64,000 bases of DNA from the NCBI RefSeq assembly GCF_001632775.1, contig NZ_CP015249.1, positions 2,150,686 to 2,214,685 on the forward strand, in the 5' to 3' direction. The DNA is from Dokdonella koreensis DS-123 (lineage in GTDB: Bacteria; Pseudomonadota; Gammaproteobacteria; Xanthomonadales; Rhodanobacteraceae). A program made the translations under genes and the position numbers. Under the pieces are notes generated by a model. The model worked only from the letters and a program-made list of their open reading frames with translations, was not told the origin of the DNA and made no database searches. Below, one piece after another: positions 2,091 through 33,147 of the stretch (its first letter is position 1; each line of letters starts with the position of its first letter).

Positions 2091-3302
2091 TCACCGATCC
2101 GGCAGGCCAGGGTCGAAGCCGTCGCCGAAGAGCCTGTCGCCGGGCAGCGTGACCACGGCGGCGCGCGGCATGGAGTCCGTATCGCGGCCGTTCAACAGCA
2201 CTTGGCGGCCGTCCGGACTGACCGCGCTGGCGACCAGTTCCCAGCCTTCGCCGCCGAAGGCGATGCCCTGGCTGGCCAGCAGGGTGCCGAGGTCGCGCAT
2301 GCCCGAGGCGGCGGTCCACAGGAACGGCCGCCGGGCCGGAAGGGCGCCGAACGGTTCCTCAGCCAGGATCGTGTAGGTGCCGACGATCGTCGTGCCGTCG
2401 TCGCTGAGGTCCCAGGCCGTGTACGGCGGCTGCGCCCCCGCCGGCAGTCCCGAAGGATCCAGGTAGGTGGCGCCGCCGGCCTCGGTCCAGAACCAGGCCA
2501 GCGCCCAGGCCGGATCGTCCGGGGTGACGTCGCCGCCGGGGCCGCCGCCGACGATCATCGAGCAGTCGGCATTGCAGGCCATGGCGCGGCCGAGCGGGCG
2601 CCCTTCGGCGTCGCGCAGCATGCTGGCGACGCCGTCGGACCAGCGTGCGCCGTAGTAGTAGCGGTTCGGAAACGCCGGATCGGGCCGGTAGTAGAAGTGA
2701 CCGATCGCGACGCGACCGTCGTCGCCGACCGCCCAGGCTTCGCCGCCTTCCAGCTCCGCCGGTACCGGCAGCGTGCGCTGTCCGGCGGCCGCATCCCAGA
2801 TCCAGGGACGGTTCGGTGCCGGCTGGCCCGGCACCGGCTGCATGCGGCCGGCGCCGACGATGCGCGTGCCGTCGGCGGAGACGCCGTAGGGGAACGCATC
2901 GTGCAGGCTCAGGCCGGGCAGGGGAGCCCAGCTGCCTTCGTCCTGCCGGAACCACGGCGCCAAGATGGGTGCCGGCGGCGTCTGCATGGTGCGACGGACC
3001 ACCGCGATGGTCCTCCCGTTCTTCGACAGCGCCGGAGTGACGTCGCTGGTGTAGCTGATCGGGCCGCCGCCCAGGGGTTCGGGCGAGGACGCCTCCGGCG
3101 GCCAGCGCAGCACGCCGTCATCGACGGAAGTGCCCACGACGGTGCCGTCGGCGGCCAGGCTGGCGGCGTGCTCGCCCGGCTGCAGCACCAGTTCCCGGAA
3201 CGCGAGCCCTTGTGCCAGCAGCGGAGTGCCGGCGAGCAGCAGGCATGAAAGCAGGGCGCGCGGCAGGCGCTGCGCGTTACGGCGGGACGTGCAAGAGGGC
3301 AT
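2091..3302 (-). CDS. Secreted HAF-repeat (beta-propeller-like) protein with LF-GDGFD C-terminus
   Basis: A 403-residue protein with a signal peptide (basic start, hydrophobic LLSCLLLAGTPLLAQG). The body repeats the HAF-type unit in which a strand ending S.DG..IVG recurs, such as GVSADGTRIVGAG, DLSDDGTTIVGTY and AVSPDGRQVLLNG, as in predicted extracellular HAF-family repeat proteins. Their function is unknown. The C-terminus carries DRLFGDGFD at residues 389-397, a motif shared by four other secreted proteins in this window. It is convergent with the Rieske gene, with only 12 bases between the stops, and stands alone as a transcript. No catalytic residues are recognisable. Confidence 0.8.
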   Translation of the reverse strand: MPSCTSRRNAQRLPRALLSCLLLAGTPLLAQGLAFRELVLQPGEHAASLAADGTVVGTSVDDGVLRWPPEASSPEPLGGGPISYTSDVTPALSKNGRTIAVVRRTMQTPPAPILAPWFRQDEGSWAPLPGLSLHDAFPYGVSADGTRIVGAGRMQPVPGQPAPNRPWIWDAAAGQRTLPVPAELEGGEAWAVGDDGRVAIGHFYYRPDPAFPNRYYYGARWSDGVASMLRDAEGRPLGRAMACNADCSMIVGGGPGGDVTPDDPAWALAWFWTEAGGATYLDPSGLPAGAQPPYTAWDLSDDGTTIVGTYTILAEEPFGALPARRPFLWTAASGMRDLGTLLASQGIAFGGEGWELVASAVSPDGRQVLLNGRDTDSMPRAAVVTLPGDRLFGDGFDPGLPDR

Positions 3303-3471
3303 CGGGGCCTCGGCAGGCGGTTCGGGAAGGACCGTAGCCTGCCGTTACGGCATCCGGCGCACATTCGCGCCGGATGCCAGGAGCGCTCCGGATGCTCCAA
3401 TTGCGCTCGATCCGGAGGACCGGAACGCTAGGCCGCGATGCCGCCGGTTGCCGGCGGCATCGGCAATCGGA

Positions 3472-5844
<2,373 letters not shown>

Positions 5845-6023
5845 GACAGTCTCCGGAAAGCGAAGGGAAGGCGTGCGCGGGCCGGACGGCCCGGATGGGC
5901 AATTTTCGGGGTTTGCGGCAACAGGGGCAAGGGAAAGCCCACGGGTGCCACGATCCGGCTCCGTCCGCAAGGTCTCGCCGCGGTGTCGGGTCGCTGCCGG
6001 CGCGCCGCGCACCGGGAGGGTGG

Positions 6024-8444
6024 ATGCATGGGTCCTGCTACGCTATGCCGATGGCAGCAAGGCATTACCGTTTCCGCACCTTCAGGCTCGACCCCGCCGC
6101 CCGTGAACTGTGGAAGGACGACGAACTGGTCGTCCTTCCCGGCAGCGCGCTCGATTGCCTGGTGTACCTGGTCGAGCACCGCGAACGTGCCGTCGGCCGC
6201 GACGAGCTGATCGCGGCGGTCTGGGGCCGGGCGGACGTGGCCGATACGCTGCTGGCGCAGACCGTACTGCGGGTCCGGCGCACGCTCGGCGACAGCGGTA
6301 GCGATGGCGCGATCCGCACGGTGGCCCGGTTCGGTTACCGCTGGGTCGAAGAAACGATGGTCGACGGCGACGGCAGCGAGCCGGTCGCCGCACCGCGGCC
6401 GGCGGTCGAGCCGGCCGGACCGGACGAGGCGGACGGCGAGGCCACGCAGGACGCAGGCGCTCCGGCGGCGGTCCGGGACCCGCCGCCGCGGCGGCGGACG
6501 TTCTGGCCCGGCGTGGCTCTCGTGCTGGGCATGGTCTGCATTGCGATCCTGGCGATGCTCTGGCCCGGCCGGCACGGTTCGGATCCCTCCGGTCCGGTGG
6601 CCGCGTCGGAAGCTCCGGCGGGGAAGACCTCGCCGTCGCCCGCCCTGGTGCTGCCCGCGAGCGTGCCGGACACGGCCGATTGGAGCTGGCTGCGCCTCGG
6701 GCTGATGGACCTGGTCGGCAATCGGCTGCGGCAGGGCGGCCTGCCGACCGCGCCGAGCGAGAACGTGCTGGCGCTGCTCGGCGGTCTCGGCGACGCCGAC
6801 CTGGCTGCCGCACCGGCCGCCGCCGGCGCCTGGCGCATCGTGCCGAAAGCCGAGTACCGCGATGGCGCGTGGAAGGTCCAGTTGCAGGCGCGGCGGGATG
6901 CGGGCCCGCCGCACGAGGTGGAAGCGACCTCCGACGACGTGCTCAAGGCGGCGCGCAGCGCCACCGACGTGTTGCTGATCCGGCTCGGTTACGCGCCGCC
7001 GCAGGGCGGCGAGGTGGTGCGTTCGCTGGCCCTGGAGGAACTGGTCCAGCGCACCAAGGCGGCGATCCTGGCCGACCAGTTCGACCTCGCCCGGCACCTG
7101 ATCGAGCAGGCCCCCGAGTCGCTGCGCGCCACACCCGAAGTGGAGCTGCGCCTGGCCCAGATCGACCAGGGACGCGGCCTCAACGCCGAAGCGGAGGTGC
7201 GCCTGCAGGCGCTGCTGGACCGCGTGCCGGCCAGCCTCGACCCGGCGCTGCGGGGCCGCATCCTGATCAGCCTGGGTTCGACCCAGTACCGGCGCCGGCA
7301 GCTGGCCGCCGCCAGCCAGACCTTCGACGAGGCGATCGAGGTCCTGGAAGGGGCCGGCGACCCCATCGCGCTGGCCGGCGCCTACGGCGGCCGGGCCGCC
7401 ATTGCCTCGCAGGACGAGAAACTCGACCAGGCTGCCGCCGACCTCGGCCGGGCCCGGGTGGAGATGGAGGCGGGCGGCGATGCCCTGGGCCTGGCGCAGG
7501 TGGACATGAACCTCGGCCTGGTCCAGATCAAGAACTACCGGCCGGCGCAGGCGCTGCCGATGCTGCGCGGCGCCGAGGCCCGGATCGCCGTGTTGGGCGC
7601 GCGTGAAGAACTGGCCTATGTCCGCTATGGGATGGTCGGTGCCCAGCTACAGCTGCTCGACTACGGTGGCGCCCAGGCCACGGTCGCACAGTTCTGGCCG
7701 CCGGAGGCGCATACCGGCAACGCGCGCCTGCGCTGGCGCCTGACGGTGACCAAGGTCTACGTGCTGCTCGCCACCGGCCGCCTCGACGAGGCCGACACCC
7801 TGCTCTCGCAGATCGAGCAGGGCGCGGGTGACGCCGACGACTACGCGGCGCATTCGGCCGGACGGGCGCTGACGGCGCTGGTCGTGGCGGCGCGCGGCCG
7901 CTTCGAGGAGGCCGCGCCCCTGGCCAAGGCGGCGCTCACCGGCGAACTGGAGTACGAACAGCCCGACCTGTACCTGACCACCTGGGCCGTGCGGCTGCGC
8001 TGCCTGCGCCGCAGCGGGCAGGTGGACGCGGCGGTGGCGGAAACCGTGGCACTGCGCAGCTGGGTCGAGGGACGGCCCAATCTCTGGCGCCGCACCTATG
8101 CCACGCTGGCCGAGGCCGAGCAGGCCTGGGCGCTCAGCCGGACCGAGGCGGCGCTGCAGCGTTTCGCCGACGCGTTCGAGCAGGCCGAGCGGTTGGGCAT
8201 CCCCGACGACCTGGTCGAGGTGGCCGAGCCGTATGCCCTGGCGCTGATCGAAATCGGGCAGGTCGATCGCGCCAGCACCGTGGTCGGCCGCGTCGCTGCC
8301 TGGGCCGAGCACGACCTGCGTGCGGCCTGGGCGCAGGCCCAGCTGTACCGTGCCCAGGCGCGGACCAGCGCCTGGCACCGGGCGACCGAACAGGTCCTGA
8401 AGCTGGCCGGCGAGCGGGCGTTGCCGGCCGTGACCATCGATTAG
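6024..8444 (+). CDS. Winged-helix (OmpR/CadC-type) transmembrane regulator with TPR domain
   Basis: An 806-residue one-component regulator. Residues about 15-110 form an OmpR-type winged helix ([11 protein letters not shown], then the recognition-helix region [15 protein letters not shown] and the wing GYRWVEE). A proline- and alanine-rich linker leads to one membrane segment at about residues 160-181 ([17 protein letters not shown]), placing the rest outside the membrane. The C-terminal 600 residues are helical with TPR-like units. This layout is that of CadC-like proteins that sense an envelope signal. Starts at 6045 or 6051 are also possible; 6024 has GGGAGGG just upstream. The large secreted protein downstream is a plausible target. 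No response-regulator receiver domain is present. Confidence 0.85.
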
Positions 8445-8664
8445 AAGTCTGAACGGACGGCCCGTACGCGGTCCGCCATAATCGATCGCGCATCGCGTAA
8501 CTGACTGATGCATCGGTATTCGGCGCGCTTCTAATCGTTCCCGAACCGTTCACGCATCGCGGCCGAATGCAACCGGCGCCGTCCCGCGGGAGACTCGGCC
8601 TGCAATAAGCGGCCGCGCCGCTCTGCCTGGCATCCCGCACACGAATCCGAGGTAGCTCGATCCC

Positions 8665-11262
8665 ATGAAGAAGGTTCTATCGGTACTGATTTGCATGGCC
8701 CTGGGCACCGCCCACGCGGCGGCGACCGCGCAGGCGCCTGCCGGAAGCGGCGAGCTGCCGCTGGCCGGCGTCTACGGCGGCGCGCTGAAGGACCCGGTCA
8801 TCGCCGGGGACTATGTGTATGTGCCCAGCGGGCGCATCGTCAGCGCCTGGAACTACGCCGATCCGGCCGCCCCGGTACTGGTGTCGAGCACCCGGCTGAC
8901 GCCGGCCAGCGGCACCCTGCGCGGGCTGACGCGCTGGGGCGACTACCTCTACGCCAGCTGGCAGGCCGGTGACGACAGCGCCGGCGTGGCGGTGTACTCG
9001 CTGCGCGATCCGGCGCGTCCGGAACTGGTCAACGAGTTCAGCGACTACGCGTCTCCGGCCTACAAGAACCTGTGGACCCTGGCGGCCGCGAACGGCTACC
9101 TGTACCTGTTCGATGCCGAGAACGGCATCTACTTCGGCGACCTGGCGGCCGACGCGCTGCACCCGACCTTCACGCGGCTGCTGCGCACGCCGGTACCGTA
9201 CGAGCGCAGCCAGGTCGACGGCGACCGCATCTACATCAGCGGCACGACGTTCTCGTCGGAGCCGGTCCATGTGTGCTCGACCCTCGACGTCGCCACGCCG
9301 TCCGCGCCGGTCTTCCTGGACACCCACTGCGGCCACGGCGACCAGATCGAGAACTTCCGCAGCCGCATCCAGGCGCCGTACGCGGCGACCTTCGGGCTGA
9401 AGTTCAGCCTGTACGATCCGGCCACGCCGGCCGGCGGCGGGCCGATCGGCAGCATCGACACGCTGCCGGCGACCGACGGCTTCCTGGCCGGCAACTACGC
9501 CTACAGCCTGGGCTTCGACGGGATCGACATCCACGACATCAGCAACCCGGCCGCCCCGACGACGGTGGGTTCCTCGCCGGTCAGGGCGCTCGGCGCCGAT
9601 GCGGTCACCCCGCTGGCCGACGGCGCGCTGGTGCTGACCAGTACCGACCGCTTCATCCGCCTGGACGTGGCCACCGATCCCCTCGACCCGATCGAGACCA
9701 GCGTGGTCACGCCGCCCGGCGGCGCGGCCGCGCGCGACATCGCGCTGGTGAACGGCAAGGCGCTGATCCTGCAGGAGAACTACGGAATCACCAAGGTCGA
9801 CCCGGTGAGCTTCGAAACGCTGTCGCGGTTCGATGCCGCGCTGCCCGAGGCGCTCAACCAGCGCGACTTCGAGCAGTTCGCGGTCGACGGCCAGCGCGCC
9901 TACCTCGTTGCCTGGGGCTATGGCCTCATCGTCGCGGACCTCTCGTTCGACCGGCCGTTCGAACTGGGACGGCTGGAGTTCCCGTACGCCTCGGCGGTGG
10001 CCGCCAGCGGCAACTACGCGTACCTGGGCACGTCCACCAACGGTGGCTTCCTGCAGGTCGTGGACGTGTCGGTGCCGGAGAAGCCGGTGCTGCGCGGCAG
10101 CCTGGCGGTGCCGACGATCAACCGCCTGCAGGTGCACGGCAACTACGTCTATGCCGCCGACGAGCTGTCCGGTATCCACGTCTTCGACGTCAGCGATCCG
10201 GACGCGCCGACCCAGGTGCAGCTGTGGAACGATGGCTGCGCCGATCTCGGTGGCTACACCGCCCGCGACATCGCACTCAACGAGACCGGCACGCTGGCCG
10301 CCGTCGGCTGCCCGACCGGCCTGCACCTGCTCGACCTCAGCCGTCCGGCCAGCCCGACGCGAGTCGGCGGCTATGCGGCCGAATGGGCCAACGCGCGCGT
10401 GGACATCCGTGGTGACCGTGCCTGGTACGCCGACGCCAACGGCCTCCGGGCGTTCGACATCACCACGCCGAGCGCCCCGGCGCTGGTCGGCGAGACCAGC
10501 CTGGTCGGCTTCGCGCCGCGCCGGCTGCGCGCCACCGGCGACGGCCGCGTGGTCGCGTTCGGCACCACCACCGGCATGCACGTGTTCGGCCAGATCGAGC
10601 CGACCGAGCCACCGGCCGACCGGCTGTTCGCCGACGGCTTCGATGTGGCGCCGCCGGCCGGTGCCGTCAGCACCTACGACGACCTGGTCGAAGGCACGCA
10701 GGGCACGAGCTTCCGCTACAACGGCGTGACCTATCGCGAAGTCAACGAAGTCCACGGCTACTGGCCCGGCCCGGAGCACGAGCCGTTCACGCCCGGCTCG
10801 TGGCTGGACGGCGGCCTCGGCAACGAGTTCCTGATCGAGGACTCGAGCTACCTGTTCAACGACTTCCCGGCGTTCGGCAGCTCGCCGAACATGATGACGT
10901 TCGGTGCGGGTGAGCTGGTCATCGCAGGCGGCAACCTCAACATCGGTCCGCTGGCCAGCGCGTGGCTCGATCTGGACGAGGTCGCCTCGTCGGCGAGCAT
11001 GCAGCTGGCCTACTACGAGAACGGCCCCTGGGGCGGCATCAGCATCCATCTCGACGCGTACAAGGACGGCGTCAAGGTCGGCGGCACGCAGCTGTCGATC
11101 ACCAGCACCGATCCGAACGGCCGCGACAACGTGACCACCAATTCGCTGTCGGTCACCGGCGTGGAGTTCGATTCGCTCCACCTGTACTCGCAGCTCGACG
11201 GCGAGTACACGGCACCGCGCGTGATGGTCGACGACCTGCGGCTGACCGCGCCCGTTCGCTGA
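8665..11262 (+). CDS. Large secreted LVIVD-repeat protein with C-terminal beta domain
   Basis: An 865-residue exported protein (signal peptide MKKVLSVLICMALGTAHAAA). Residues about 30-640 carry repeated units of the LVIVD type, where strands such as NYAYLGTS, LQVVDVS and YVYAADELSGIHVFDVSD recur, giving a likely cell-surface beta-propeller. At about 652-660 comes DRLFADGFD, the motif that ends other secreted proteins here. It is followed by a further 200-residue beta-rich domain of PEP-CTERM-like exoprotein style (SGNEFLIEDSS-type segments), so the motif sits internally. Function is unknown. It lies 220 bases after the membrane regulator gene, in the same direction, and may be controlled by it. 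Confidence 0.82.
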   Translation: MKKVLSVLICMALGTAHAAATAQAPAGSGELPLAGVYGGALKDPVIAGDYVYVPSGRIVSAWNYADPAAPVLVSSTRLTPASGTLRGLTRWGDYLYASWQAGDDSAGVAVYSLRDPARPELVNEFSDYASPAYKNLWTLAAANGYLYLFDAENGIYFGDLAADALHPTFTRLLRTPVPYERSQVDGDRIYISGTTFSSEPVHVCSTLDVATPSAPVFLDTHCGHGDQIENFRSRIQAPYAATFGLKFSLYDPATPAGGGPIGSIDTLPATDGFLAGNYAYSLGFDGIDIHDISNPAAPTTVGSSPVRALGADAVTPLADGALVLTSTDRFIRLDVATDPLDPIETSVVTPPGGAAARDIALVNGKALILQENYGITKVDPVSFETLSRFDAALPEALNQRDFEQFAVDGQRAYLVAWGYGLIVADLSFDRPFELGRLEFPYASAVAASGNYAYLGTSTNGGFLQVVDVSVPEKPVLRGSLAVPTINRLQVHGNYVYAADELSGIHVFDVSDPDAPTQVQLWNDGCADLGGYTARDIALNETGTLAAVGCPTGLHLLDLSRPASPTRVGGYAAEWANARVDIRGDRAWYADANGLRAFDITTPSAPALVGETSLVGFAPRRLRATGDGRVVAFGTTTGMHVFGQIEPTEPPADRLFADGFDVAPPAGAVSTYDDLVEGTQGTSFRYNGVTYREVNEVHGYWPGPEHEPFTPGSWLDGGLGNEFLIEDSSYLFNDFPAFGSSPNMMTFGAGELVIAGGNLNIGPLASAWLDLDEVASSASMQLAYYENGPWGGISIHLDAYKDGVKVGGTQLSITSTDPNGRDNVTTNSLSVTGVEFDSLHLYSQLDGEYTAPRVMVDDLRLTAPVR

Positions 11263-11381
11263 GCGCCGGGGCCGTCCCGCGCGTCGTCGCCCCGATGACG
11301 GCGCGCGTGGCCCCCGGCGGCGTCCGCGCGTGCATTCGCCGCGCGGGCGCCGCCGTCCCGCACCTCCCATCTGGAGATCTC

Positions 11382-12347
11382 ATGTCTGTTTCCTTCCCGT
11401 ATGGCCGCCGCGGCGGCGCGGCAGCGCTTCTCGTCGGCCTTGCGTCGGCTTCGACGGTGGCCTTCGCCCAAAGCGATCCGGTCGTCATGTTCGACGGTTT
11501 CGACGGCTGTGCACCGGTGCAGAGCACGATCGGACCCGAAGGCGGCGAATTGCGCCTGTGCGGCGCGCAGCTGACGGTACCGCCCGGTTCGGTCGGCGCA
11601 CCGACCACGTTCGGCATCGAACGACTCGAGTCCGCCCCGCCGGCGCCGTTCGACATGGAGCCGGCGGGCCCGGCGTTCCGTTTCACGCCCGACACCCTAG
11701 CGCTGAACCCGCCGGCGATCGTGCGCGTGCCGCGCGTGGACGGTCGTCGCGGCGGCCTGGCGGTGGACGTCCCGTCCGAAGGCGGCTTCCTGCTGATCGA
11801 GGCCTGCGGTCAGAGCCAGGGCGGCCTGCTGCAGTACTTCGGCGGGCTCGGCACGTTCGGCGCGTTCCGCTTCGTCGGGCCGCTGCCCGATTCCACGCAG
11901 GGTCTCGGCGACGGCACGATCACGGCGGTCGCGGACGGCATCGACACGGCCTACGACATCGACACGCCCGGCAACAACTATGCGATCTACCAGGACCGTC
12001 CCGACGGCGGCCGGCAGATCCTCGTCACCGCGATGAACGATCTGCCCAACGGCCAATTCGAGTACCTGCGTCTGGATCTGGCCGTCAACGCCGCGACCGG
12101 GCAGGGCAGCATCGTCCAGATCTCCCTGCTGGGCCCGGTCAACGGCAGCTACATCCTCGGCCTGCTCGGCCAGGCGTCGATCAGCTTCGGCGATCTGAGC
12201 GACGGACGCGTTCGCGCGGACATCGAGGCGAACCTGGTGTCGGGGCCGCAGAACATCGCGTTCCGGGCGCAGATCGACGTCGGCGTCGAACGCTACATCT
12301 TCCCGCCGTCGCTGAGCTGTCCGGAGTCGCCACCGGGCCTGCAGTAA
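11382..12347 (+). CDS. Secreted protein with ZU5-like N-terminal domain, function unknown
   Basis: A 321-residue protein with a signal peptide ending near AFAQ (residue 30). Directly after it is MFDGFDGC (residues 36-43), a variant of the LF-x-DGFD motif placed at the N-terminus. Then comes a segment resembling ZU5-like domains: IGPEGGELRLCGAQLTVPPG, in which a G-G-x-L strand leads to a V-P-P-G turn. The remaining 200 residues are beta-rich with no recognised family. The frame is open upstream, but ATG 11382 is chosen because it begins a clear signal peptide and TGGAGA lies seven bases before it. It follows the LVIVD protein by 119 bases and could be a second exported partner. Confidence 0.75.
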   Translation: MSVSFPYGRRGGAAALLVGLASASTVAFAQSDPVVMFDGFDGCAPVQSTIGPEGGELRLCGAQLTVPPGSVGAPTTFGIERLESAPPAPFDMEPAGPAFRFTPDTLALNPPAIVRVPRVDGRRGGLAVDVPSEGGFLLIEACGQSQGGLLQYFGGLGTFGAFRFVGPLPDSTQGLGDGTITAVADGIDTAYDIDTPGNNYAIYQDRPDGGRQILVTAMNDLPNGQFEYLRLDLAVNAATGQGSIVQISLLGPVNGSYILGLLGQASISFGDLSDGRVRADIEANLVSGPQNIAFRAQIDVGVERYIFPPSLSCPESPPGLQ

Positions 12348-12365
12348 TCCGCAGCCCGGGTCGGA

Positions 12366-12394
12366 GCGCCTCGCCGCCGCTACGGGCGAGGCGC
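12366..12394 (+). terminator. Hairpin after the ZU5-like gene
   Basis: A perfect 10-bp stem (GCGCCTCGCC / GGCGAGGCGC) with a nine-base loop lies 19 bases after the stop codon. No T-run follows, so it may be a Rho-assisted 3' end or an RNA-stabilising hairpin. Confidence 0.35.
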
Positions 12395-12477
12395 CCGGCT
12401 TCGGGGCGGGATCCGCCACGGGACGCACGGGCGCGCGCGATTGCATAGACTGTGCGCAGCCGCCCCCGGGAGATCCC

Positions 12478-23912: not shown

Positions 23913-23936
23913 AAAAAGCCGGCGCTAGGCCGGCTT
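23913..23936 (-). terminator. Rho-independent terminator of tRNA-Pro
   Basis: Read on the minus strand, AAGCCGGC, a five-base loop, and GCCGGCTT end in a run of five T. It starts 17 bases after the 3' end of tRNA-Pro. Confidence 0.85.
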
Positions 23937-23952
23937 CGTCGTTTTGCCTGTT

Positions 23953-24029
23953 TGGTCGGGGAGACAGGATTTGAACCTGCGACTTCTACGTCCCGAACGT
24001 AGCGCTCTACCAGGCTGAGCTACACCCCG
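23953..24029 (-). tRNA. tRNA-Pro (anticodon CGG)
   Basis: A 77-base tRNA including an encoded CCA. The acceptor stem is CGGGGTG at the 5' end paired with TCTCCCCG at the 3' side, beginning with the C expected of tRNA-Pro. The D arm GCTCAGCCTGGTAGAGC, the anticodon loop TTCGGGA with CGG at 34-36, and the T arm with GGTTCAAATCC are all in place. It reads the CCG proline codon, which is frequent in this GC-rich genome. It is followed by its own terminator. Confidence 0.97.
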
Positions 24030-24226
24030 AGGACACCTGCCCGTTGAGCAGGGGCGCGAATGTTAACGACTGTCGCAGGGGCGTGCAAGCCTTCCCGGCC
24101 GATCCGGATCGGGTGGAAGGGTGCCGCCGGGAGGTACCGAACGCCGGCGGCGGTGCATCTGGTAGTCTTTCCGGCTGCATACGGCGGTGCGGCCCGGCCT
24201 GCGTCCGCCAGACCCCGAGGAATCCG

Positions 24227-25600
24227 ATGGCCTTGACCCAAGCCCGCACGCCGCCCGGCGTGCTCGAACTGCTGCCGCTCGACCAGATCGCCTTCCAGGG
24301 CATGCTCGACACGATCCGGCGCAACTACGAACTGTTCGGCTTCCTGCCGGTGGAGACGCCGGTCATGGAGTATGCCGATGTGCTCCTGACCAAGTCGGGC
24401 GGCGAGACCGAGCGCCAGGTCTACTTCGTGCAGTCCACCGGCGCGCTGGAGAAGGCCGAGCGGCCGGACCTGGCCCTGCGCTTCGACCTGACCGTCCCGC
24501 TGGCGCGCTACGTGGCCGAGCACGAGCACGACCTGAACTTCCCGTTCCGCCGCTATCAGATGCAGCGTGTCTACCGCGGCGAGCGCGCGCAGCGCGGGCG
24601 TTTCCGCGAGTTCTACCAGTGCGACGTCGACGTCATCGGCAAGGACGCGCTGTCGGTGCGCTACGACGCGGAGATCCCGGCGGTGATCTACAGCGTCTTC
24701 CGCGATCTGGCGATCGGGCCGTTCACGATCCAGCTCAACAACCGGCGGCTGATGCGCGGCTGGTTCGAGGGCCTGGGCATCGCCGACGGCGAGCGCCAGA
24801 TGCTGGTGCTGCGCGAGGTCGACAAGCTCGACAAGCGCGGCCCGGACTACGTGCGCCAGACCCTGACCGGCGACGGGTTCGGCCTGTCCGCCGAGACGGC
24901 CGGGCGCATCCTGGATTTCGTCCAGGTGCGCTCGACTTCGCTCGCCGATGCCCATGCGCAGCTCGATGCGCTCGGCAGCGGCAGCGAGACCTTCGAGCAG
25001 GGCCGCCGCGAGCTGCGCGAGGTGCTGGACCTGATCGCGGCATTCGGCGTGCCGCAGACGCATTTCGCGCTGAACCTGTCGATTGCGCGGGGCCTGGACT
25101 ACTACACCGGCACGGTCTACGAGACCACGCTCAACGACCATCCCCAGATCGGCTCCATCTGCTCCGGCGGCCGCTACGAGAACCTGGCCGGCAACTACAC
25201 CAAGTCGCACCTGCCGGGCGTCGGCATCTCGATCGGCCTGACGCGCCTGTACTGGCAGCTGCGCGAGGCCGGCCTGGTCGGCACGGCGACCAGTTCGGTG
25301 CAGGCGCTGGTCACGCAGATGGACCCGGCCCGCCTGGCCGACTATCTCGCGCTGGCCGGCGAGCTGCGCGACGCCGGGGTCGCCACCGAGGTCGTGATGG
25401 ACCCGTCCAAGCTCGGCAAGCAGTTCAAGTACGCCGACCGCGCCGGCATCCGTTTCGTGCTCGTGCTCGGCGAGGACGAGATCGCCAAGGGTGTCGTGAC
25501 CGTGAAGGACCTGCGCCGCGAGGACCAGTTCGAGGTGGCACGTGCCGACCTGGCGGCGACGCTGCAGGTCGAGCTGGCGCAGGCTGCGGCGGTGCGCTGA
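24227..25600 (+). CDS. hisS: Histidyl-tRNA synthetase
   Basis: A 457-residue class II synthetase that charges tRNA-His. Class II motif 2 is seen in [32 protein letters not shown], the histidine-binding loops in [15 protein letters not shown] (HisA motif 1) and [13 protein letters not shown], and motif 3 in [13 protein letters not shown]. The C-terminal anticodon domain begins at about residue 365. The frame is open upstream to 24044, but ATG 24227 gives the family N-terminus and lies just after the spacer expected for a promoter. The gene is followed after 125 bases by an ammonia-lyase of the histidase family. Confidence 0.95.
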
Positions 25601-25632
25601 GCGTCGCTTGACCGCCTGATCGGGCATCCACA

Positions 25633-25653
25633 GCGACCGGCGGGGCCGGTCGC
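25633..25653 (+). terminator. Hairpin after hisS
   Basis: An 8-bp stem (GCGACCGG / CCGGTCGC) with a five-base loop lies 32 bases after hisS. There is no T-run, so termination here is uncertain. Confidence 0.35.
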
Positions 25654-25725
25654 GTCGGCGTGCGACGCCTGTCCGCAGGCGGCGCGATCGGCGAGAATGC
25701 CGGTTTCCTCCAGAGCCCCGATCCG

Positions 25726-27663
25726 ATGCCAGCTTCCCCGATTCGTCTCGATGGCACTTGCATGACGCGTGCGGACCTGGTCGCCATCGCGCGCGGCCGT
25801 TGTGTCGTCCTCGACGAGGTGCAGCTCACGCGGGTCCGGCGTGCGGCGGAGTTCCTGGCCGACAAGGTCCATTGCGGCGAGCCGGTCTACGGCGTCACCA
25901 CCGGCTTCGGCAGCAATGCCGACAAGCTGCTGGGCGCGCACCGGCTGCGCGACGAGCTGCCCGGCGGCAACCCGGAGCGGCAGAAAGGTACGCTGCTGGA
26001 AGAGCTCCAGCACAACCTCATCGTCACGCACGCGGTCTGCGTCGGCAAGCCGCTGGCCGTGGAGGTCGTCCGCGCCATGCTGGCGATCCGCGTCAATACG
26101 CTGATGCGCGGCCATTCGGGCATCCGCGTGGACACCTTGCAGGCGCTGGCGGAGCTGCTCAATCGCGGTGTGGTACCGGTGGTTCCGCAGAAGGGCTCCG
26201 TCGGCGCCAGTGGCGACCTGGCGCCGCTGTCGCACCTGGCAATCGTCCTGCTCGGCGGCGGCGAGGCCTTCGTCGACGGCGAGCGCATGCCGGGTGCACA
26301 GGCGCTGGCGCGCGTCGGGCTGGTACCGCAGCGCCTCTCGTTCAAGGAAGGGCTGGCGCTCAACAACGGCACCGCGCAGATGCTGGCCACGGCGGTGCTG
26401 GCGCTCGATCGCATCGAGACTTTGCTGGCGACCGCGGACCTGGCGGCGGCGATGACGCTGGACGCGTTCGCCGGCCGCAGCGGCGCGCTGCGGCCGGAAG
26501 TGCATGCGCTGCGTCCGCACCCGGGCCAGGTCGAAACGGCCCGCCGCCTGCGCACGCTGATCGAAGGCTCGACGCTGGTCGACATCCCCTATCACCTGGT
26601 CCCGCGCTTCCGCACCTGGGCCGCCGACGCCTGGCGCGAGCCCGAGGACCAGGCCCGGCGCTTCGACATCGCCTGGGACTGGGTGCCGAGCAGCCAGCGG
26701 CACGGACGCGAGGCGTTCTACACGCGCTTCATGCCCTTCCGCGGCGGCAAGAAGCACCAGCCACAGGACGCCTACTGCCTGCGCTGCATGCCGCAGGTGC
26801 ACGGCGCGGTGCGCGACGCCTGGATGCAGGCCAGCCGCATCATCGACATCGAACTCAATGCCGTCACCGACAATCCGCTGATCTTCCCGGATGCCGACGA
26901 CCCGGTGTTCGCCGAGGGCAAGGCGGCGGGGCGCCCGCAGCACATCGAGGACCAGGTGGTATCGGCCGGCCACTTCCACGGCATGCCGCTGGCGTTGGCG
27001 ATGAGCTACGTCAAGGCGGCGCTGCCGGTGCTCGCCTCGATTTCCGAGCGGCGCCTGGCCAAGCTGGTCGATCCGGCCACCAACGACGGCCTGCCGGCGT
27101 TCCTGATCGGCAACGAGGATGCGACCGACTCGGGTTTCATGATCGTCCAGTACACGGCCGCGGCCCTGGTCAACGACCTGGCGACCCGTGCGCATCCGGC
27201 CAGCGTCTATTCGGTGCCGACCAGCGCCAACGCCGAAGACCACGTGTCGATGGGCACCAACGAGGCGCGCCACGTGCTGGAGATGACCGAGGACCTGGGC
27301 CACGTGCTCGCGCTGGAGCTCTATACGGCGGCGCAGGCGCTGGAGTACCGGCAGGACATGCTCAATGCCGCACGCGGCCTGGCGCAACGCGGCGGCTGGG
27401 AGGCATTGGCCGCCAAGGTGGCCAACGCCCCCCGCGAGGGCGAGGCGGGGCGTGCCATGTTCGAGGCAGAAGTGAAGGCGCTCCGCGATGCGCTGGCCGC
27501 CAGCAGCGACTTCCATGCCGGAACGCAGGTTCGCGCCGCGCTCGCGAAGATCCGCGAGCGGATCGACTTCATGCAGCGCGACCGTGCGATGGACGGCGAC
27601 GTGAGCCGGATCTGCGAACTGGTGGCCGAAGGTGGCCTGGTCGACCGCGGCCGGCTCGTATGA
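25726..27663 (+). CDS. MIO-type aromatic amino-acid ammonia-lyase, histidase-like, extended
   Basis: A 645-residue member of the histidine/phenylalanine/tyrosine ammonia-lyase family. The self-forming MIO cofactor triad Ala161-Ser162-Gly163 is in GSVGASGDLAPLSHLA. The catalytic Tyr55 (YGVTTGFG), Tyr350 and Arg353 (DAYCLRC) are present. The selectivity position reads Thr101-His102, which resembles the Ser-His of histidases, so urocanate formation from histidine is the best guess, not certain. The usual length is about 510; the excess is mainly a segment of about 60 residues at 285-345, rich in Trp, Arg and His, just before DAYCLRC. No other hut genes are nearby. A second possible start is ATG 25762. 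Confidence 0.85.
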   Translation: MPASPIRLDGTCMTRADLVAIARGRCVVLDEVQLTRVRRAAEFLADKVHCGEPVYGVTTGFGSNADKLLGAHRLRDELPGGNPERQKGTLLEELQHNLIVTHAVCVGKPLAVEVVRAMLAIRVNTLMRGHSGIRVDTLQALAELLNRGVVPVVPQKGSVGASGDLAPLSHLAIVLLGGGEAFVDGERMPGAQALARVGLVPQRLSFKEGLALNNGTAQMLATAVLALDRIETLLATADLAAAMTLDAFAGRSGALRPEVHALRPHPGQVETARRLRTLIEGSTLVDIPYHLVPRFRTWAADAWREPEDQARRFDIAWDWVPSSQRHGREAFYTRFMPFRGGKKHQPQDAYCLRCMPQVHGAVRDAWMQASRIIDIELNAVTDNPLIFPDADDPVFAEGKAAGRPQHIEDQVVSAGHFHGMPLALAMSYVKAALPVLASISERRLAKLVDPATNDGLPAFLIGNEDATDSGFMIVQYTAAALVNDLATRAHPASVYSVPTSANAEDHVSMGTNEARHVLEMTEDLGHVLALELYTAAQALEYRQDMLNAARGLAQRGGWEALAAKVANAPREGEAGRAMFEAEVKALRDALAASSDFHAGTQVRAALAKIRERIDFMQRDRAMDGDVSRICELVAEGGLVDRGRLV

Positions 27664-27921
27664 ACGGCCGCGGCGTCCGGGCGTCACGGGACGGCGCGAC
27701 GCGGCATGCCCGCTGCAGGACCGTGCCGCCACGGTGAGTGCGCGATGAGCACCCGCCGATCGGCGCCGTCCGCACGTCCGGCCTCGGGTGGCAGCCGATG
27801 CTCGATCCGGCTTCGCCGTAGCCCCCGCGCTTGCCACGGGCAGGGCGGAAAAGAATGGCCGCGGTAGCGCCACCAGCGGAGGGCGAAGCGTCGAATCGCC
27901 GCCCTGCGATCACCGCTGGAG

Positions 27922-27943
27922 CAGGGCGGCGGCTGCCGCCCTG
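27922..27943. terminator. Hairpin between convergent lyase and carboxypeptidase genes
   Basis: A perfect 9-bp stem (CAGGGCGGC / GCCGCCCTG) with a four-base loop, four bases from the carboxypeptidase stop. It could end transcripts from both sides, though neither side has a T-run. Confidence 0.5.
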
Positions 27944-27947
27944 TGGG

Positions 27948-29660
27948 TCATTGCGTCTCGAAGTCGTCGGCGAACAGCGTGTCGTCGGCGAGGATCTCGA
28001 CGAAGACCGCATCGGGCGTGCCGATCGTGCCGCCGTTGCGCGCGTTCTTGCCCTGCACCCAGACCAGGTGCTTGCCTGGCGCGAGGCCCGCAGTCGGAAT
28101 CGTCACCTCGACGGCTTCGGTCATCGCATTGAAGCTGCCATCGCTGGCCGTCATCGGCAGGCCGGCCGCGTCGGGATGCCAGGGCGGCAGGTCGACATAG
28201 GCCAGCGCGCCGGTGATCGCATACGTGGTCTCGTTGCCGTTGTCGTGGTTGTAGCGCGTGTCGTCGATCGTGGCACGCAGCGTCACCGCGCTCCCGGCCG
28301 GGACGCGTGCCGTGTCGGCCGTGATGCCGCGGGCGTCGGGCCCCTGAGGCCACTGGTACGGCCGCCGGGCGGCACGCGCGGCATAGAGCAGGGCGGACAG
28401 GTTGTGCGGCAGCGTGGCGGTCTCGAACTCGCTGCAGTCCTCGAAGAAATCGACGCCGAGCTCGATCGTGTAGGCGGCGGCGCCGACGTAGCCGTAGATC
28501 GTGTCGACGGTCGAGCCACGGGTCGGATAGAGACCAATCGAGGGCATCGGCCAGTAGTCGTTGAACCAGGCCAGGCGGCGGCCGAGCCGGCGCAGCGACG
28601 GGCCGTTCGGCGCTTCGGTGGACACGTCGCCCCACGGCCACAGCACCAGTTGCGAATAGCTGTGGACATCGAAGAACAACCCCGAATAGTCCTCCGGGGC
28701 CGGTGACGAGAGACTCTCGGCACGGCGGTCGGGCAGGGCACCGCCGCTGCAGTTGCCGCTGCCGTCGCAGGTGCCGACCGTATAGGCCAGCAGGTTGCGG
28801 GTTTCCGGCTCGGAGCCGGCCGCCGGCCCGCGGAAGGTCTGCTCGCAGGCCTGCGTGCTGGAGCCGCCGCTGCCGCTCCAGTGGAACGGGAAGTTGCGGT
28901 TGAGGTCCACGCCCGGCTGGCTGAAGCTGGTCGGTGTTCCCGGGCAGAAGGCATCGTCGACGTTGGTGTTCTTGCGCCAGCCGATGCCGGTCTCGGCGCG
29001 CTTGCGCCCATCCGGGTTGGCGTGGACGATGAAGCGGAAATCGACATGGTCCACGAGCCAGGTGCTCAGCGGATCGACGCCGTAGCCGGCGACCAGGCCT
29101 TCGGCCATGCGATTGAGCAGTTCCGCCGGCGTGTACTCGCGTGCGTGGATCGAGCCGTACATGACCATGCGGGGCCGGTCCGGATCCTGCGCGACCGTCG
29201 CCAGATTGGTGATGCGCAGCGCGCGCATCTCGTAGCCGGCGGCCGGGTTCTTCTCCTTCTCCCAGGTCGGCCCGATGTCCTGGAGGCTGGCCAGGTCCGG
29301 ATGCGCGGCGACCAGCGCGTCGAGCGAATCGCGAGCCTCCTCGACTGTCCGGTAGCAGGCGAAGCCGGGAATGCTCTGCGGCACGTCGGCCGGCGCGTAG
29401 AACGCGCGCAGCTTCGCGGAGGAGACCATGTCGATCCGCACGTCCAGCCCGGCCTGCTCGAGCAGGCGGATGCCGTTCTCGTCGGTGTCGACGCGGACGA
29501 CGCCGCGCGCCTCGTCGATCTGCAGGTGCTGGAACGACGCGCCGAGGCGGTCGATCGCTGCACGGTCACTGAAGTACGCTTCGACGAACCAGTCTTCGGC
29601 GGCGGCAGGATTGCCGTGCAAACCCAGCAGCACGCAGGCCGCTGCCCAGTATCTGATCAT
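27948..29660 (-). CDS. Secreted M14-family zinc carboxypeptidase with LFADDFE C-terminus
   Basis: A 570-residue exported enzyme (signal peptide MIRYWAAACVLLGLHGNPAAA). The zinc site is His172 and Glu175 in SIHAREYTP with His333 in DVHSYSQ, and the general base is Glu400 in AYTIELGVDFFED; substrate-binding HANPDGRKRAE and NRNFP segments also fit. It should remove C-terminal amino acids from peptides outside the cytoplasm. After the catalytic domain (to about 440) comes a beta-sandwich-like C-terminal domain, ending in DTLFADDFETQ, a variant of the secreted-protein motif found elsewhere in this window. ATG 29660 is preferred over 29684 because it directly begins the signal peptide. Confidence 0.9.
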   Translation of the reverse strand: MIRYWAAACVLLGLHGNPAAAEDWFVEAYFSDRAAIDRLGASFQHLQIDEARGVVRVDTDENGIRLLEQAGLDVRIDMVSSAKLRAFYAPADVPQSIPGFACYRTVEEARDSLDALVAAHPDLASLQDIGPTWEKEKNPAAGYEMRALRITNLATVAQDPDRPRMVMYGSIHAREYTPAELLNRMAEGLVAGYGVDPLSTWLVDHVDFRFIVHANPDGRKRAETGIGWRKNTNVDDAFCPGTPTSFSQPGVDLNRNFPFHWSGSGGSSTQACEQTFRGPAAGSEPETRNLLAYTVGTCDGSGNCSGGALPDRRAESLSSPAPEDYSGLFFDVHSYSQLVLWPWGDVSTEAPNGPSLRRLGRRLAWFNDYWPMPSIGLYPTRGSTVDTIYGYVGAAAYTIELGVDFFEDCSEFETATLPHNLSALLYAARAARRPYQWPQGPDARGITADTARVPAGSAVTLRATIDDTRYNHDNGNETTYAITGALAYVDLPPWHPDAAGLPMTASDGSFNAMTEAVEVTIPTAGLAPGKHLVWVQGKNARNGGTIGTPDAVFVEILADDTLFADDFETQ

Positions 29661-29814
29661 CGTGGTACCCGGTGGCCGTTGCATTCCACAGCATCGTACG
29701 GCCTTGGGGCCCGGTCAACTGGACAGCCGGGGGGACCGCGTGCAGGGGCGCGCGGCGATCCGGCCCGGCAACCTGATAGGCTGCCGCCACCAGCACGGTG
29801 CGGGAGGGCGCGAC

Positions 29815-30246
29815 ATGCGGTTTCGTATGGGCTTGGTGGCGATCGTGATGTTGGGTATCGGCGGGCTTGCCGTGGCCGATGGCGAGCCGACGGTCGAGCA
29901 GCGGCTCAAGGCGCTCGAGCAACGGGTGATCGAGCTGGAGCGCCGGCTCGACGCGGCTCCGGCAGCTCCGGCAGCCCCGGTGGCGGCGCCGGCCCCCACG
30001 GCTCCGCCGGCGGCGGCCGCATCCCGGCCACCGGCCGCCGCGCCGGTCGCGCCACCGGCGCCGGCCGATTGGCAGGCCCTGCGCAAGGGCATGACCTGGA
30101 GCCAGGTGTCGGCGGTGCTCGGCAAGCCCGGCAAGAAGCGGATCGGCGTGATGTCCGAGATCTGGTTCTATCCGGATGCCGATGGCGGCAGCGTCGAATT
30201 CGATCGCGACGGCCGCGTCTCGGGCTGGAACGCGCCGGGACGCTAG
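29815..30246 (+). CDS. Small periplasmic protein: coiled coil plus BamE/SmpA-like domain
   Basis: A 143-residue protein with a signal peptide (MRFRMGLVAIVMLGIGGLAVA). Next comes a short coiled coil (VEQRLKALEQRVIELERRLD), then a 45-residue Ala/Pro-rich linker, and a C-terminal domain starting LRKGMTWSQVSAVLGKPGKK with a following strand pair. That last pattern resembles SmpA/BamE-type domains (G-M...V...LG.P). GGGAGGG lies about four bases before ATG 29815. Function is unknown; a periplasmic scaffold or envelope protein is likely. The stop codon is part of a large hairpin shared with the convergent peptidase gene. Confidence 0.8.
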   Translation: MRFRMGLVAIVMLGIGGLAVADGEPTVEQRLKALEQRVIELERRLDAAPAAPAAPVAAPAPTAPPAAAASRPPAAAPVAPPAPADWQALRKGMTWSQVSAVLGKPGKKRIGVMSEIWFYPDADGGSVEFDRDGRVSGWNAPGR

Positions 30247-30282
30247 GCGCTGCGGGCGGCAGGCCGCCGCCCGCAGCGCCTA
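30244..30282. terminator. 17-bp perfect hairpin bounded by two convergent stop codons
   Basis: A perfect 17-bp stem from 30244 to 30260 and 30266 to 30282, with a five-base loop AGGCC. The first three bases are the TAG stop of the upstream plus-strand gene, and the last three are the TAG stop of the minus-strand peptidase gene. It is a likely two-way transcript end, although no T-run follows on either side. Confidence 0.75.
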
Positions 30283-31704
30283 GTCGTGGTCGCGGACGGC
30301 GATCCTCGCCGGTCCGGCTGCGGTGCGCGAGGGATCGAAGCGGACGGGTGGCCCGGCGACCAGTTGGCTGCGCCAGCGCTCCAGATGGGCTTCGATGGAC
30401 GGCGAGCCTGCGATCTGGGGCTCCGATCCGGTTTCGATGCCTTCGTCCCGCTCGCGTGTCTCGACCGCACGGCGGGCCAGCTCGAACGCCTCGGTCAATG
30501 ACGTGGTCTGGTTGAGGGCCTCGTCGAGGAAGGCGCGGCCGAAGTAGGTGATGTCGGCATCCGCGCCGCAGCCGAACGAGGTGCGATCGGCCCGCGCGGA
30601 CGCCATGACCAGGGTCGAATCGCTGCGCAGCGCCTCGACGAAACCGCCCGAGTAGCAGGCCGACACGACCAGCACCTTCCATGGAATGGCCGGCTCGGTC
30701 GCCAGTGCGTCGGCCAGGTCGGCCGGCGTGATCGCGTCGAGCGGCAGCGGCGGCAGATCCACCTGCAGCTGATGGTCTGCGCTGCCGTGGCTGGTCAGGA
30801 ACACCAGCACGATGTCCTCGGCGGGGTCCATCCTGGCGGCGATTCCGTCCAGCGCCCAGATCAGGTTGCCCAGCGTCGCCAGCGGCCGCGTCTGGACCGT
30901 GTCCGGAGCGTTGGCCAGGACCAGGACGCGGCCCTCGGCGCCGAACCGCTCGGAGAACAGGCGCTCGGCATGCTCGACCTCGTTGCGGAAGACCCGTTCG
31001 GTTCCGTCGCCGGCGAACGCCACGACGTAGAGATCGATCGTGCCGGGGCGCTGCGGGGCGATCCGCCCCAGGGCTTCGTCGACCAGCCGCGCCTGATCGT
31101 AGAAGACGCGTTCGGCGCTGACCTGCAGCAGGCCGGTCCCGTCCTCGCCGTCCGGCTGGGCGTACCACAGCGGTGGGGCGGGCAGGTACCACCCGGCGGC
31201 CACCAGAAGAAAACAGCCGGCGACCGCCGCCGCCAGCGCATGCAGCCGCCGGTCGCCGCCCAGGTGCCTGGCCAGTGCATAGAGCGCAGCCGCCGTCCAC
31301 GCGATGAACAGCCACGCCGCCGCGGCGAAGACCCAGGTCCGGCCCGGCCCGGTCAGGCTGGCGGCCAGCCACGACAGCGGCCGGTATGCCAGTTCCAACG
31401 CCAGATCCGCGGCCAGGACGATCGCCGCGACGCCCCAGACGATCGCCGGGCGCCGTGCCTGCCACGCGAGCAGCCAGGCGGCCGCCAGCACCAGCACGAC
31501 GCCGGCGAGCAAGGGCGCAACCCCGTAGGAACTGAACATGCGCGGCGCCGGCGTCTCCAGCGCCGCGAGGCCCGCCAGGGCCAGCACGTACAGCAACGCC
31601 GCCGCCAGGAAGGTTCCGGCACCGGCCGCGGCCAGGTTGCCGCGCGGCCGGCGCAGCAAGGCAACGCGTATGCCCTGTACCAGGCTGGCGCCGAGCGCAT
31701 TCAC
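30280..31704 (-). CDS. C13-family (caspase/legumain-like) membrane cysteine peptidase
   Basis: A 474-residue protein. Residues about 25-175 hold five hydrophobic segments, so it is anchored in the inner membrane, with residues 180-474 forming a caspase-hemoglobinase-fold domain. The catalytic pair is His306 in FLTSHGSAD and Cys350 in [10 protein letters not shown], with strands [11 protein letters not shown] and [11 protein letters not shown] typical of the C13 group in proteobacteria. The start is GTG at 31704, whose last bases overlap the mtnC stop (GTGA), so the two genes are translationally coupled, an unexplained pairing. The substrate is unknown. Confidence 0.85.
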
Positions 31705-32390
31705 CCCAGGACGATCGCGTCGAAGTCGGTCACGCACGGATGCGGGGCTTCGGCCGGGCAGGCCATCGGCGGCCGTGCCAGCAGCGTGGTCTGGAAACCC
31801 GCAGCGCGTGCGGCATCCAGTTCCTCGACGACATCCGACAGGAACAGGATGTGCTGGGGCTGCTCACCGATCGCCTCGGCGATGCGCGCATAGGATGTCG
31901 ACAGCCGCTTCGGGCCCGTCTCGGTGTCGAACCAGCCGGCGAACAGCGGTGCCAGGTCGCCGGCCTCGCTATGGCCGAAGAACAGCTGCTGGGCGGGTAC
32001 CGAGCCGGACGAATAGACGTAGAGGCGGATGCCGTCCGCACGCCACTGGCGCAATCGCGCGGCCACCTCCGGATAGACGTGCGCGCGGAATTCGCCGGCC
32101 ACGTAGCCTTCCTGCCAGATCAGCCCTTGCAGCGCCTTCAGCGCCGTGGACTTGCGGTCCACGTCGATCCAGTGCTGCAGCAGGTCGATGAGCTCCTGCT
32201 GCGACGCCGAGACCAGCTCGGCTTCCTTGGCGGCTTCGTGCAGCCAGTGCTGGACGTCGGCATGGTCGGCGTGGGTACTGATGAAGGCGGGCAGCCGCGT
32301 GCGTGCATACGGAAACAGGACGTCCTTGACGAAGTCGATCGAGCTGGTGGTGCCTTCGATGTCGGTGAGAATGGCGCGGATTTCGGACAT
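31701..32390 (-). CDS. mtnC: Acireductone synthase (enolase-phosphatase E1)
   Basis: A 229-residue HAD-family enzyme of the methionine salvage pathway. It enolises 2,3-diketo-5-methylthiopentyl-1-phosphate and then removes the phosphate to give the acireductone. HAD motif I is [14 protein letters not shown] (Asp10), motif II is [10 protein letters not shown], and motif III/IV is around [16 protein letters not shown] 32390 gives the family N-terminus ([14 protein letters not shown]); the frame is open to 32501. It is downstream of mtnB and mtnD on the same strand but is separated from them by two small opposite-strand genes. Confidence 0.96.
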
Positions 32391-32545
32391 GGCCGGTCCT
32401 GAAGGGGGGAGTCTCCGAAGCGTAGCAGGCGCGGTGAACGGCTGTCCGCGCGAACGTGTCGTTCGTCCTCGGAGACGGAGCGGTGGTCTTGCCAGCGTCA
32501 CGCACGATGGCTAAGGTCGCGGCCCCCTGAAAAACCGGAGTCACC

Positions 32546-32833
32546 ATGAAGCTCAATCCCGTCGCCGCCGTCGCGGCATTCGCTCTCGTCGCGGTCCCGG
32601 TCGCGCAAGCCGGCCAGGCGGACATCTGCTACGGCCCGAGCCTGCCTTCGATTCCGATGCCGCCGCCGGCGGACAACACGACCGTCTTCAACTGCCCGCA
32701 GGCCGGCAGCCGCACCGTGCCGGAACTGGCCAATCTCGGCTGGCAGGTCGTGCAGATGACGCCGGTCACCACGCCGGGCGGCGATCCGACGTTCCCGAAC
32801 GTCACCGCGCAGCTGATCATCCAGAAGCCGTGA
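32546..32833 (+). CDS. Tiny secreted protein, first of a tandem pair
   Basis: A 95-residue protein with a signal peptide (MKLNPVAAVAAFALVAVPVAQA). The mature part is about 70 residues, with the pattern DICYGP, then TTVFNCPQAGSRTVPELANLGWQVVQMTPV. Two cysteines could form a disulfide. The downstream gene encodes a clear paralogue. I do not recognise a family. It lies on the opposite strand to, and between, mtnC and mtnD, so it interrupts the methionine-salvage cluster. GGAG-like AAACCGGAG is upstream of the ATG. Confidence 0.75.
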   Translation: MKLNPVAAVAAFALVAVPVAQAGQADICYGPSLPSIPMPPPADNTTVFNCPQAGSRTVPELANLGWQVVQMTPVTTPGGDPTFPNVTAQLIIQKP

Positions 32834-33147
32834 ACCGGGCCGCCTCGTTCATCGCGCGCCGTGCGGGCCTCGTGCTGGCCGGCCTGCTGGCGGCCGCCGG
32901 CGTGCAGGCAGCGGCGCGCACCGACATCTGCTACAGCGCGCAGACGCCGCCCGGCGCCGCGCCGCCGACCAATGCGACGGTGTTCGCCTGTCCGCAGGCC
33001 GGCAACCGGACGGTGCCCGAACTGGCCGCGGCCGGCTGGCGCGTCGTGCGCATGGCACCGGTCGTGGCCGACGGTGGCGCTGCCGTGCGCCAGCAGCTGC
33101 TGGTCCGCGACGACACGCTGTTCGTCAGCGGTTTCGAACCGACCTGA
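32830..33147 (+). CDS. Tiny secreted protein, second of a tandem pair, with LFVSGFE C-terminus
   Basis: A 105-residue paralogue of the preceding gene: after the signal peptide the shared frame is DICY, then P-x-x-T-x-V-F-x-CPQAG-x-RTVPELA and GW-x-VV-x-M-x-PV. It differs at the end, where it carries DTLFVSGFEPT, the secreted-protein motif of this genome, absent from the first copy. The start is GTG at 32830, overlapping the preceding stop (GTGA), so the pair is translationally coupled and presumably made in fixed ratio. The function is unknown. Confidence 0.75.
   Translation: MNRAASFIARRAGLVLAGLLAAAGVQAAARTDICYSAQTPPGAAPPTNATVFACPQAGNRTVPELAAAGWRVVRMAPVVADGGAAVRQQLLVRDDTLFVSGFEPT

Follow-up and report, generated by a model that had tools for sequence, protein, structure and literature searches.

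The region considered here, hereafter the window, is a stretch of 64,000 nucleotides (positions 2150686-2214685) of the single-contig, 4.45 Mb genome of Dokdonella koreensis DS-123, in which a short motif with the core LF-x-DGF, referred to below as the tag, recurs on exported proteins. The original prediction had assigned it to five such proteins; four copies are exact, in frame and carried by proteins with signal-peptide-like N-termini, whereas the fifth is a near match only. A HAF-repeat protein (2091-3302) carries LFGDGFD on the minus strand at 2112..2132, six residues before the stop codon (GDRLFGDGFDPGLPDR-stop), and an M14 carboxypeptidase (27948-29684) carries LFADDFE, also on the minus strand, at 27957..27977, two residues before the stop (ADDTLFADDFETQ-stop). 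The LVIVD protein (8665-11262), which shows a weak, below-cut-off match to choice-of-anchor B, has an internal copy, LFADGFD, on the plus strand at 10624..10644 (PADRLFADGFDVAPP), placed behind the repeat region, with about 205 residues still to come before the stop. The fourth exact copy, LFVSGFE, lies on the plus strand at 33118..33138, two residues before the stop (RDDTLFVSGFEPT-stop) of a tiny secreted protein (32830-33147). This gene stands in tandem with an untagged paralogue on the same strand (32546..32833, ending QLIIQKP-stop; 50% identity over 72 columns), so that the two form a natural pair with and without the tag, the downstream gene running on into it. The near match, VMFDGFD within VMFDGFDG, lies on the plus strand at 11484..11504, just past the signal peptide of a ZU5-like protein (11382-12347); its membership is doubtful, because it is one residue shorter (MF-DGF instead of LF-x-DGF) and fails the pattern used below.

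Size, consensus and carriers of the tag

The motif occurs far beyond chance and belongs to the whole genome rather than to the window alone: the DNA pattern VTBTTYNNNRRYGRYTTYGA, which encodes [LIVM]F-x-[DNSG]-[GD]-F-[DE], matches at 104 places, while the reversed pattern, used as a control, matches at none. The former count is too low, since the pattern skips some codons and since further tags and variant tags missed by it were found in later reading. One hundred of the 104 places were read, 96 of them in 75 fetched stretches and four in the window. The motif ends 15 residues or fewer before the stop codon in 84 cases and six or fewer in 79; the forms after a signal peptide or between domains, which the original prediction had set beside the C-terminal ones, are a minority, with 16 copies lying internally or near the N-terminus, more than 15 residues from the stop. 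Among the 84 C-terminal tags the motif mostly reads L or I, F, any residue, D (61), G (59) or D (25), F, and E or D, and two positions ahead of it there is D in 57 tags and E in 16. The tag is accordingly a short, non-membrane, mostly C-terminal element with the consensus [DE]-x-[IL]-F-x-[DNS]-[GD]-F-[DE]-x(0-6)-COOH, carried by about 100 exported proteins. A rare N-terminal form is found in L020 and L022, where the tag adjoins the signal peptide (RPLFVDGFEPP) or stands a short way behind it (DPIFSNGFEVPP).

Signal-peptide-like N-termini were found, by a crude rule and in a sample taken around the tags, in 67 of 83 C-terminally tagged gene calls vs 148 of 370 untagged neighbours, and several of the 16 tagged calls without one look like wrong starts or cut open reading frames. 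This speaks against the possibility, raised together with the original prediction, that the motif is no commoner in exported proteins than elsewhere. The other possibility raised there, shared ancestry of a C-terminal domain, is contradicted by the diversity of the carriers: without their last 25 residues, the 83 gene calls form 39 BLAST clusters of at most 17 members, and 77 tagged proteins match 79 Pfam families. Among the 25 Pfam families listed are beta-helix (7), DUF4394 (7), subtilase (6) and DUF5122 (5), together with FG-GAP, sorbosone dehydrogenase, M14, M12B, M28 and endonuclease I. In NCBIfam, where matches with E up to 0.1 were taken and cut-offs disregarded, the same 77 proteins match choice-of-anchor Q (8), choice-of-anchor J (4), HAF repeats (6), and M36 families named for myxosortase (4), rhombosortase (4) and the type IX secretion system (T9SS; 3), i.e., kinds of protein that bear other anchors elsewhere. 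No family named as a tag of this sort appeared among the 25 of 77 NCBIfam and 25 of 79 Pfam families listed for the tagged proteins, although so short a motif may escape hidden Markov models, and no paper on it was present among the matches listed in open-licence PubMed Central.

The M14 peptidase, whose nearest named relative is encoded by a Dokdonella metagenome-assembled genome (78% identity; Lysobacterales, Rhodanobacteraceae; the protein's own record possibly lay outside the search), offers a natural swap of C-termini. In 44 of the 48 loci found, 26 relatives have the tag, or in four cases a close variant of it (IFADGFG, IFTHGFE, IFEDGFG and IFDDGFQ), at their end, and 17, from Lysobacter, Luteimonas, Tahibacter and other relatives, have no tag and instead show, by eye, PKD-type C-termini, 16 of them with a P-domain-like end; P_proprotein was confirmed by Pfam in both untagged proteins tested (L082, L087). 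The end of one relative (L115) could not be sorted either way. Both kinds are present in Tahibacter harae (L109, L119), and three layouts precede the tag, which is attached to the catalytic part itself, to an unassigned region or to a CarboxypepD_reg/MAM region. In the predicted structure of the M14 peptidase the tag is a disordered tail, residues 571-578 having a predicted local distance difference test (pLDDT) value below 50, after the last strand at 558-565. In ten of these relatives (L095, L096, L098, L099, L101-L103, L105, L110, L118) the MAM-like domain itself opens with a tag-like string, loosely [IL]F-x-DD-x-E-x-G...W, and the same proteins end in the tag or a variant.

Taken together, the same end is found on many families, is exchanged for other C-termini in orthologues and, as shown below, is confined to a limited set of genomes, which bears out the idea of a portable sorting-type tag: one signal on many unrelated exported proteins, C-terminal and interchangeable with other C-termini. 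The motif is real and large in number and apparently represents an unnamed protein-targeting tag.

Co-occurrence with a second type II secretion locus

In a sample of 150 genomes from the order Lysobacterales, tag counts are bimodal: 54 genomes are tag-rich (15 or more pattern matches) and 96 tag-poor. The family of D. koreensis (f1) has four genomes with 35 to 104 tags and 20 with 0 to 4. Outside the order, 226 genomes of the class stay at background level, with no count above 6. The tag is thus restricted, in the genomes sampled, to part of the Lysobacterales, and genomes of low G+C content are possibly undercounted because of the codon choice of the pattern. With the relaxed pattern [LIVM]F-x-D-x-F-[DE], whose matches were counted and not individually read, the g23 genomes of family f10 rise from 0-6 to 5-89 matches.

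A search for the secretin GspD of the type II secretion system (T2SS) marked out the four tag-rich f1 genomes by an extra, higher-scoring copy, here called GspD-2. Its position in D. koreensis is near 699 kb, within a GspC-GspD-GspE locus (L184), and it exceeds the cut-off of TIGR02517 (561.5 bits; cut-off 351.35), as GspE does that of TIGR02533 (656.2 bits; cut-off 630.25). GspC matches Pfam T2SSC (93.8 bits; cut-off 27), yet stays below the NCBIfam GspC cut-offs, and its PDZ match (25.9 bits) is just under the cut-off of 27, which the two other GspC proteins tested both exceed. Its structural model has a mean pLDDT of 72.6 and a predicted template modelling score of 0.33, with confident HR and PDZ-like parts, and its top Foldseek matches include DegQ, the EpsC PDZ domain and GspC HR structures. 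With GspC, GspD and GspE all present, the locus classes as a T2SS, and GspC stands alongside in 16 of 16 GspD-2 stretches read. About 14 kb from the locus, at 684080-684517, there is also a short exosortase-like gene (PF09721, 34 bits).

The genome has another operon of this kind at 898-915 kb (L185), with prepilin-like genes (by eye) and a large GspD, which we take to be of the Xps type, the T2SS of Xanthomonas. Its GspD is only 25% identical to GspD-2. The two types also differ in GspC, for XpsC is described as having a single helix where the PDZ fold would be (PMC11981180), whereas the GspC of the second locus has a PDZ-like domain. From GspD scores, rather than orthology, the tag-poor f1 relatives would use the Xps-type system.

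GspD-2 was matched in 88 of the 150 genomes, of which 81 were counted as orthologues; seven f2 genomes with 0 or 1 tag, whose matches have 40-47% identity and in six cases cover just the secretin core, were set aside as another secretin type. The orthologue is present in 50 of 54 tag-rich vs 31 of 96 tag-poor genomes (odds ratio 26). The tag therefore co-occurs statistically with the extra T2SS locus, and the question, put forward with the original prediction, of which secretion gene goes with motif count finds a candidate in this second T2SS. GspD-2 separates the genomes completely in f1 (4/4 rich, 0/20 poor) and, with the seven weaker matches set aside, in f2 (1/1 rich, 0/23 poor); in f9, 18 of the 20 rich genomes have it and so do three of the four poor ones, the remaining poor one, G019 (1 tag), being without any GspD match. 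At genus level, with 10 or more matches counted as rich, it is present in 27 of the 28 rich genera and in six of the 36 poor ones. The tag-poor genomes with GspD-2 belong mostly to f10, and among 18 readable ends of S8 proteases from GspD-2-positive, tag-poor genomes (17 from f10, one from f8) four are variants of the tag: IFHDAFEADQ, LFYDRFEQP, EFYLDGFESVVR and VFLSDGFEDAP. When the larger of the two pattern counts is taken with a cut at 13, 74 of the 84 genomes then rich have GspD-2, as do 7 of the 66 then poor (area under the curve 0.93). The misfits are, among the rich without GspD-2, G048, G059, G118 and G123 plus six f8 genomes (G027, G063, G107, G122, G132, G147) and, among the poor with it, G006, G064, G082, G089, G117, G127 and G143. 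Apart from the exceptions named here, the tag goes together with one T2SS, as a cargo signal of that system would. A tree of 33 GspD-2 sequences groups them largely by family, so that shared loss would be a simpler account than recent transfer.

Two known sorting enzymes were considered as partners of the tag and rejected. The exosortase family PF09721 is only weakly linked to it (29/54 rich vs 33/96 poor; odds ratio 2.2, p 0.03) and occurs in one of the four rich f1 genomes, and the rhombosortase TIGR03902 exceeds its cut-off in none of the 54 tag-rich genomes and in 12 of the 96 tag-poor ones.

Neighbouring genes and possible functions

Genes neighbouring the tagged ones were clustered in stretches of the D. 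koreensis genome and of four genomes. No sortase-like partner stood out; the recurrent neighbours are mainly regulators, kinases, σ-factor-like genes and one untagged exported family. Within the window, a ToxR/CadC-like regulator (5895..8444, plus strand), consisting of Trans_reg_C, one hydrophobic segment and a TPR-like remainder, lies directly upstream of the tagged LVIVD gene. The genome encodes 46 such paralogues, and for 22 of them one of the listed tags follows on the same strand, no more than 5.5 kb downstream (mean 2.6 and largest value 21 in 10,000 circular shifts), while 10 of 20 further regulator stretches show, by eye, a tag-like end; about half or more of the 46 are placed directly upstream of a gene for a tagged secreted protein (loci L002, L007, L012, L026, L036, L041, L057, L059 and L071, among others). 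Across the order, members of this family (E up to 1e-40) turn up in 16 of 54 tag-rich vs 12 of 96 tag-poor genomes; all four rich f1 genomes have them, as against one of the 20 poor ones, and the 20 rich f9 genomes have none. This regulatory arrangement is limited to some of the tag-rich genomes. Serine/threonine kinase-like genes also recur beside tagged genes (L010:4841-7642, L023, L043, L052, L069, L070 and others), one of them, checked with Pfam, having TPR repeats, as do genes that by eye resemble extracytoplasmic function σ factors. In f4 genomes, 16 untagged, exported-looking proteins that open like TYRGTLNDGGLPANGRYDIRL adjoin tagged genes (L124-L163; G003, G041, G015).

We lean towards the view that the tag is a linear cargo signal of the second T2SS, with its PDZ-like GspC, its GspD and its GspE, and that it is perhaps GspC that reads it. 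That this T2SS reads this tag is a step we infer from their co-occurrence, and a PDZ domain as the reader would be a further step on top of it. Cargo would be exported by Sec and fold in the periplasm. The second T2SS would then bind the exposed, disordered tail, the likeliest binding sites being the PDZ domain of GspC, its second periplasmic domain, or the periplasmic domains of GspD. By way of the secretin the protein would next leave the cell or reach its surface, and lineages losing the second T2SS would also have lost the tag. PDZ domains are known to bind C-termini. In its GspD, GspE and GspC family matches and in the fold of GspC, the second locus resembles the PDZ-GspC systems (EpsC of Vibrio, OutC of Dickeya, PulC of Klebsiella). 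According to published work, the PDZ domain of EpsC is needed for the secretion of VesB, via the immunoglobulin fold of the latter (PMC12369372), and no common linear or conserved signal is known for T2SS cargo (PMC7949064, PMC11981180, PMC12369372); in these sources the published signals are structural, whereas the putative cargo described here is marked by a linear tag. More tentatively, the tag might be the first linear and portable substrate signal of a T2SS, in which case a second GspC devoted to it would read the nine-residue tail with its PDZ domain, and about 100 or more proteins of a single genome would be sent to one of two parallel T2SSs, with tag and reader varying together (LF-x-DGFE with the f1/f4 type, IF-x-D-x-FE with the f10 type).

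Several observations weigh against assigning the tag to this system. Outside the Lysobacterales, T2SSs of the PDZ type are known to function with no tag of this sort. The evidence is a correlation across four profiled gene families, and others may track the tag equally well or better; the thresholds, including the cut at 13, were chosen after the counts had been seen, and when the seven weaker f2 matches are included, GspD-2 is present in 38 of 96 tag-poor genomes. The tag-rich genomes G048, G059, G118 and G123 (77 to 96% complete, in 150 to 530 contigs) show no GspD-2, whereas the tag-poor f9 genomes that have it include G064, which is 99% complete. In f8, three genomes have GspD-2 but few tags, whereas relaxed matches rise as high as 18 and 23 in genomes lacking it, and 14 of the 18 readable S8 protease ends mentioned above are not tag-like. 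Components F to M of the second T2SS were not located, the gene lists of L184 and L189 showing only C, D and E, though no search aimed at F to M was made. Finally, a PDZ groove that strictly required a free C-terminus would not account for the 16 copies that are internal or near the N-terminus.

The distribution of the tag over many unrelated exported proteins also recalls GlyGly-CTERM with rhombosortase, PEP-CTERM with exosortase and MYXO-CTERM with myxosortase, which likewise place one short C-terminal signal on many unrelated exported proteins, with a patchy, many-to-one relation to the partner. The tag might therefore serve surface retention or anchoring after or beside the T2SS, its reader, a putative enzyme or receptor, being inherited together with the second T2SS, as for GlyGly-CTERM in Vibrio. 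We regard this as unlikely, though the most serious of the alternatives: many carriers resemble surface proteins (FG-GAP, beta-helix, beta-propeller), and there are the matches, at E up to 0.1, to choice-of-anchor Q and J and to the M36 families named for myxosortase, rhombosortase and T9SS. Unlike the CTERM signals, however, the tag has no transmembrane helix or basic cluster, and the 0 to 6 residues left behind it in 79 of 100 copies give no room for either, so that the tripartite build of LPXTG-, PEP-CTERM- or GlyGly-CTERM-like signals is absent from these. Some copies follow the signal peptide or lie between domains, rhombosortase does not track the tag and exosortase does so weakly, and no recurrent sorting-enzyme gene stood out among the neighbours of tagged genes in the four genomes of which stretches were clustered. 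The C-terminal domains of type IX secretion, which also mark many cargo proteins, are folded, about 80 residues long and known from another phylum, whereas the tag has about nine residues. The exposed, disordered tail of the M14 model and the linker-like position of internal copies would also suit a cleavage site removed by a periplasmic or extracellular protease during maturation; this appears improbable, since there is little to remove behind most copies, trimming those beside a signal peptide would serve little, and neither processing enzyme, two of the four profiled families, tracks the tag well.

The remaining explanations are both very improbable. One makes the tag a ligand of membrane sensors, the neighbouring ToxR-like regulators and TPR-containing serine/threonine kinases sensing accumulating cargo; the excess of tags downstream of the regulators over the shifted mean, and the tag-like ends of half of the further stretches, would fit this, but most tagged genes read have no regulator alongside, and a family found in just 16 of 54 tag-rich genomes and absent from the rich f9 genomes cannot be the general reader, a role for which it was rejected. 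The other takes the tag for a structural end-cap, or for a relic of a jelly-roll domain start spread by recombination and read by nothing, in line with the similar string that opens the MAM-like domain of ten M14 relatives. Those ten proteins, however, hold both strings, and 10 of the 12 matches in a search for the string were this same MAM-like domain, so that the relic was not retained as a source; the tag, moreover, follows unrelated folds, forms a disordered tail in the M14 model and is rare where the second secretion system is absent.

How T2SSs choose their cargo is an old open question. If the assignment of the tag to the second T2SS is confirmed, the secretomes of much of a bacterial order would become predictable from sequence, and even should another protein be the reader, the motif is a sorting tag, apparently without a name so far, that tens to about 100 proteins per genome carry. 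The tag may be the address label that the second T2SS is not yet known to have.
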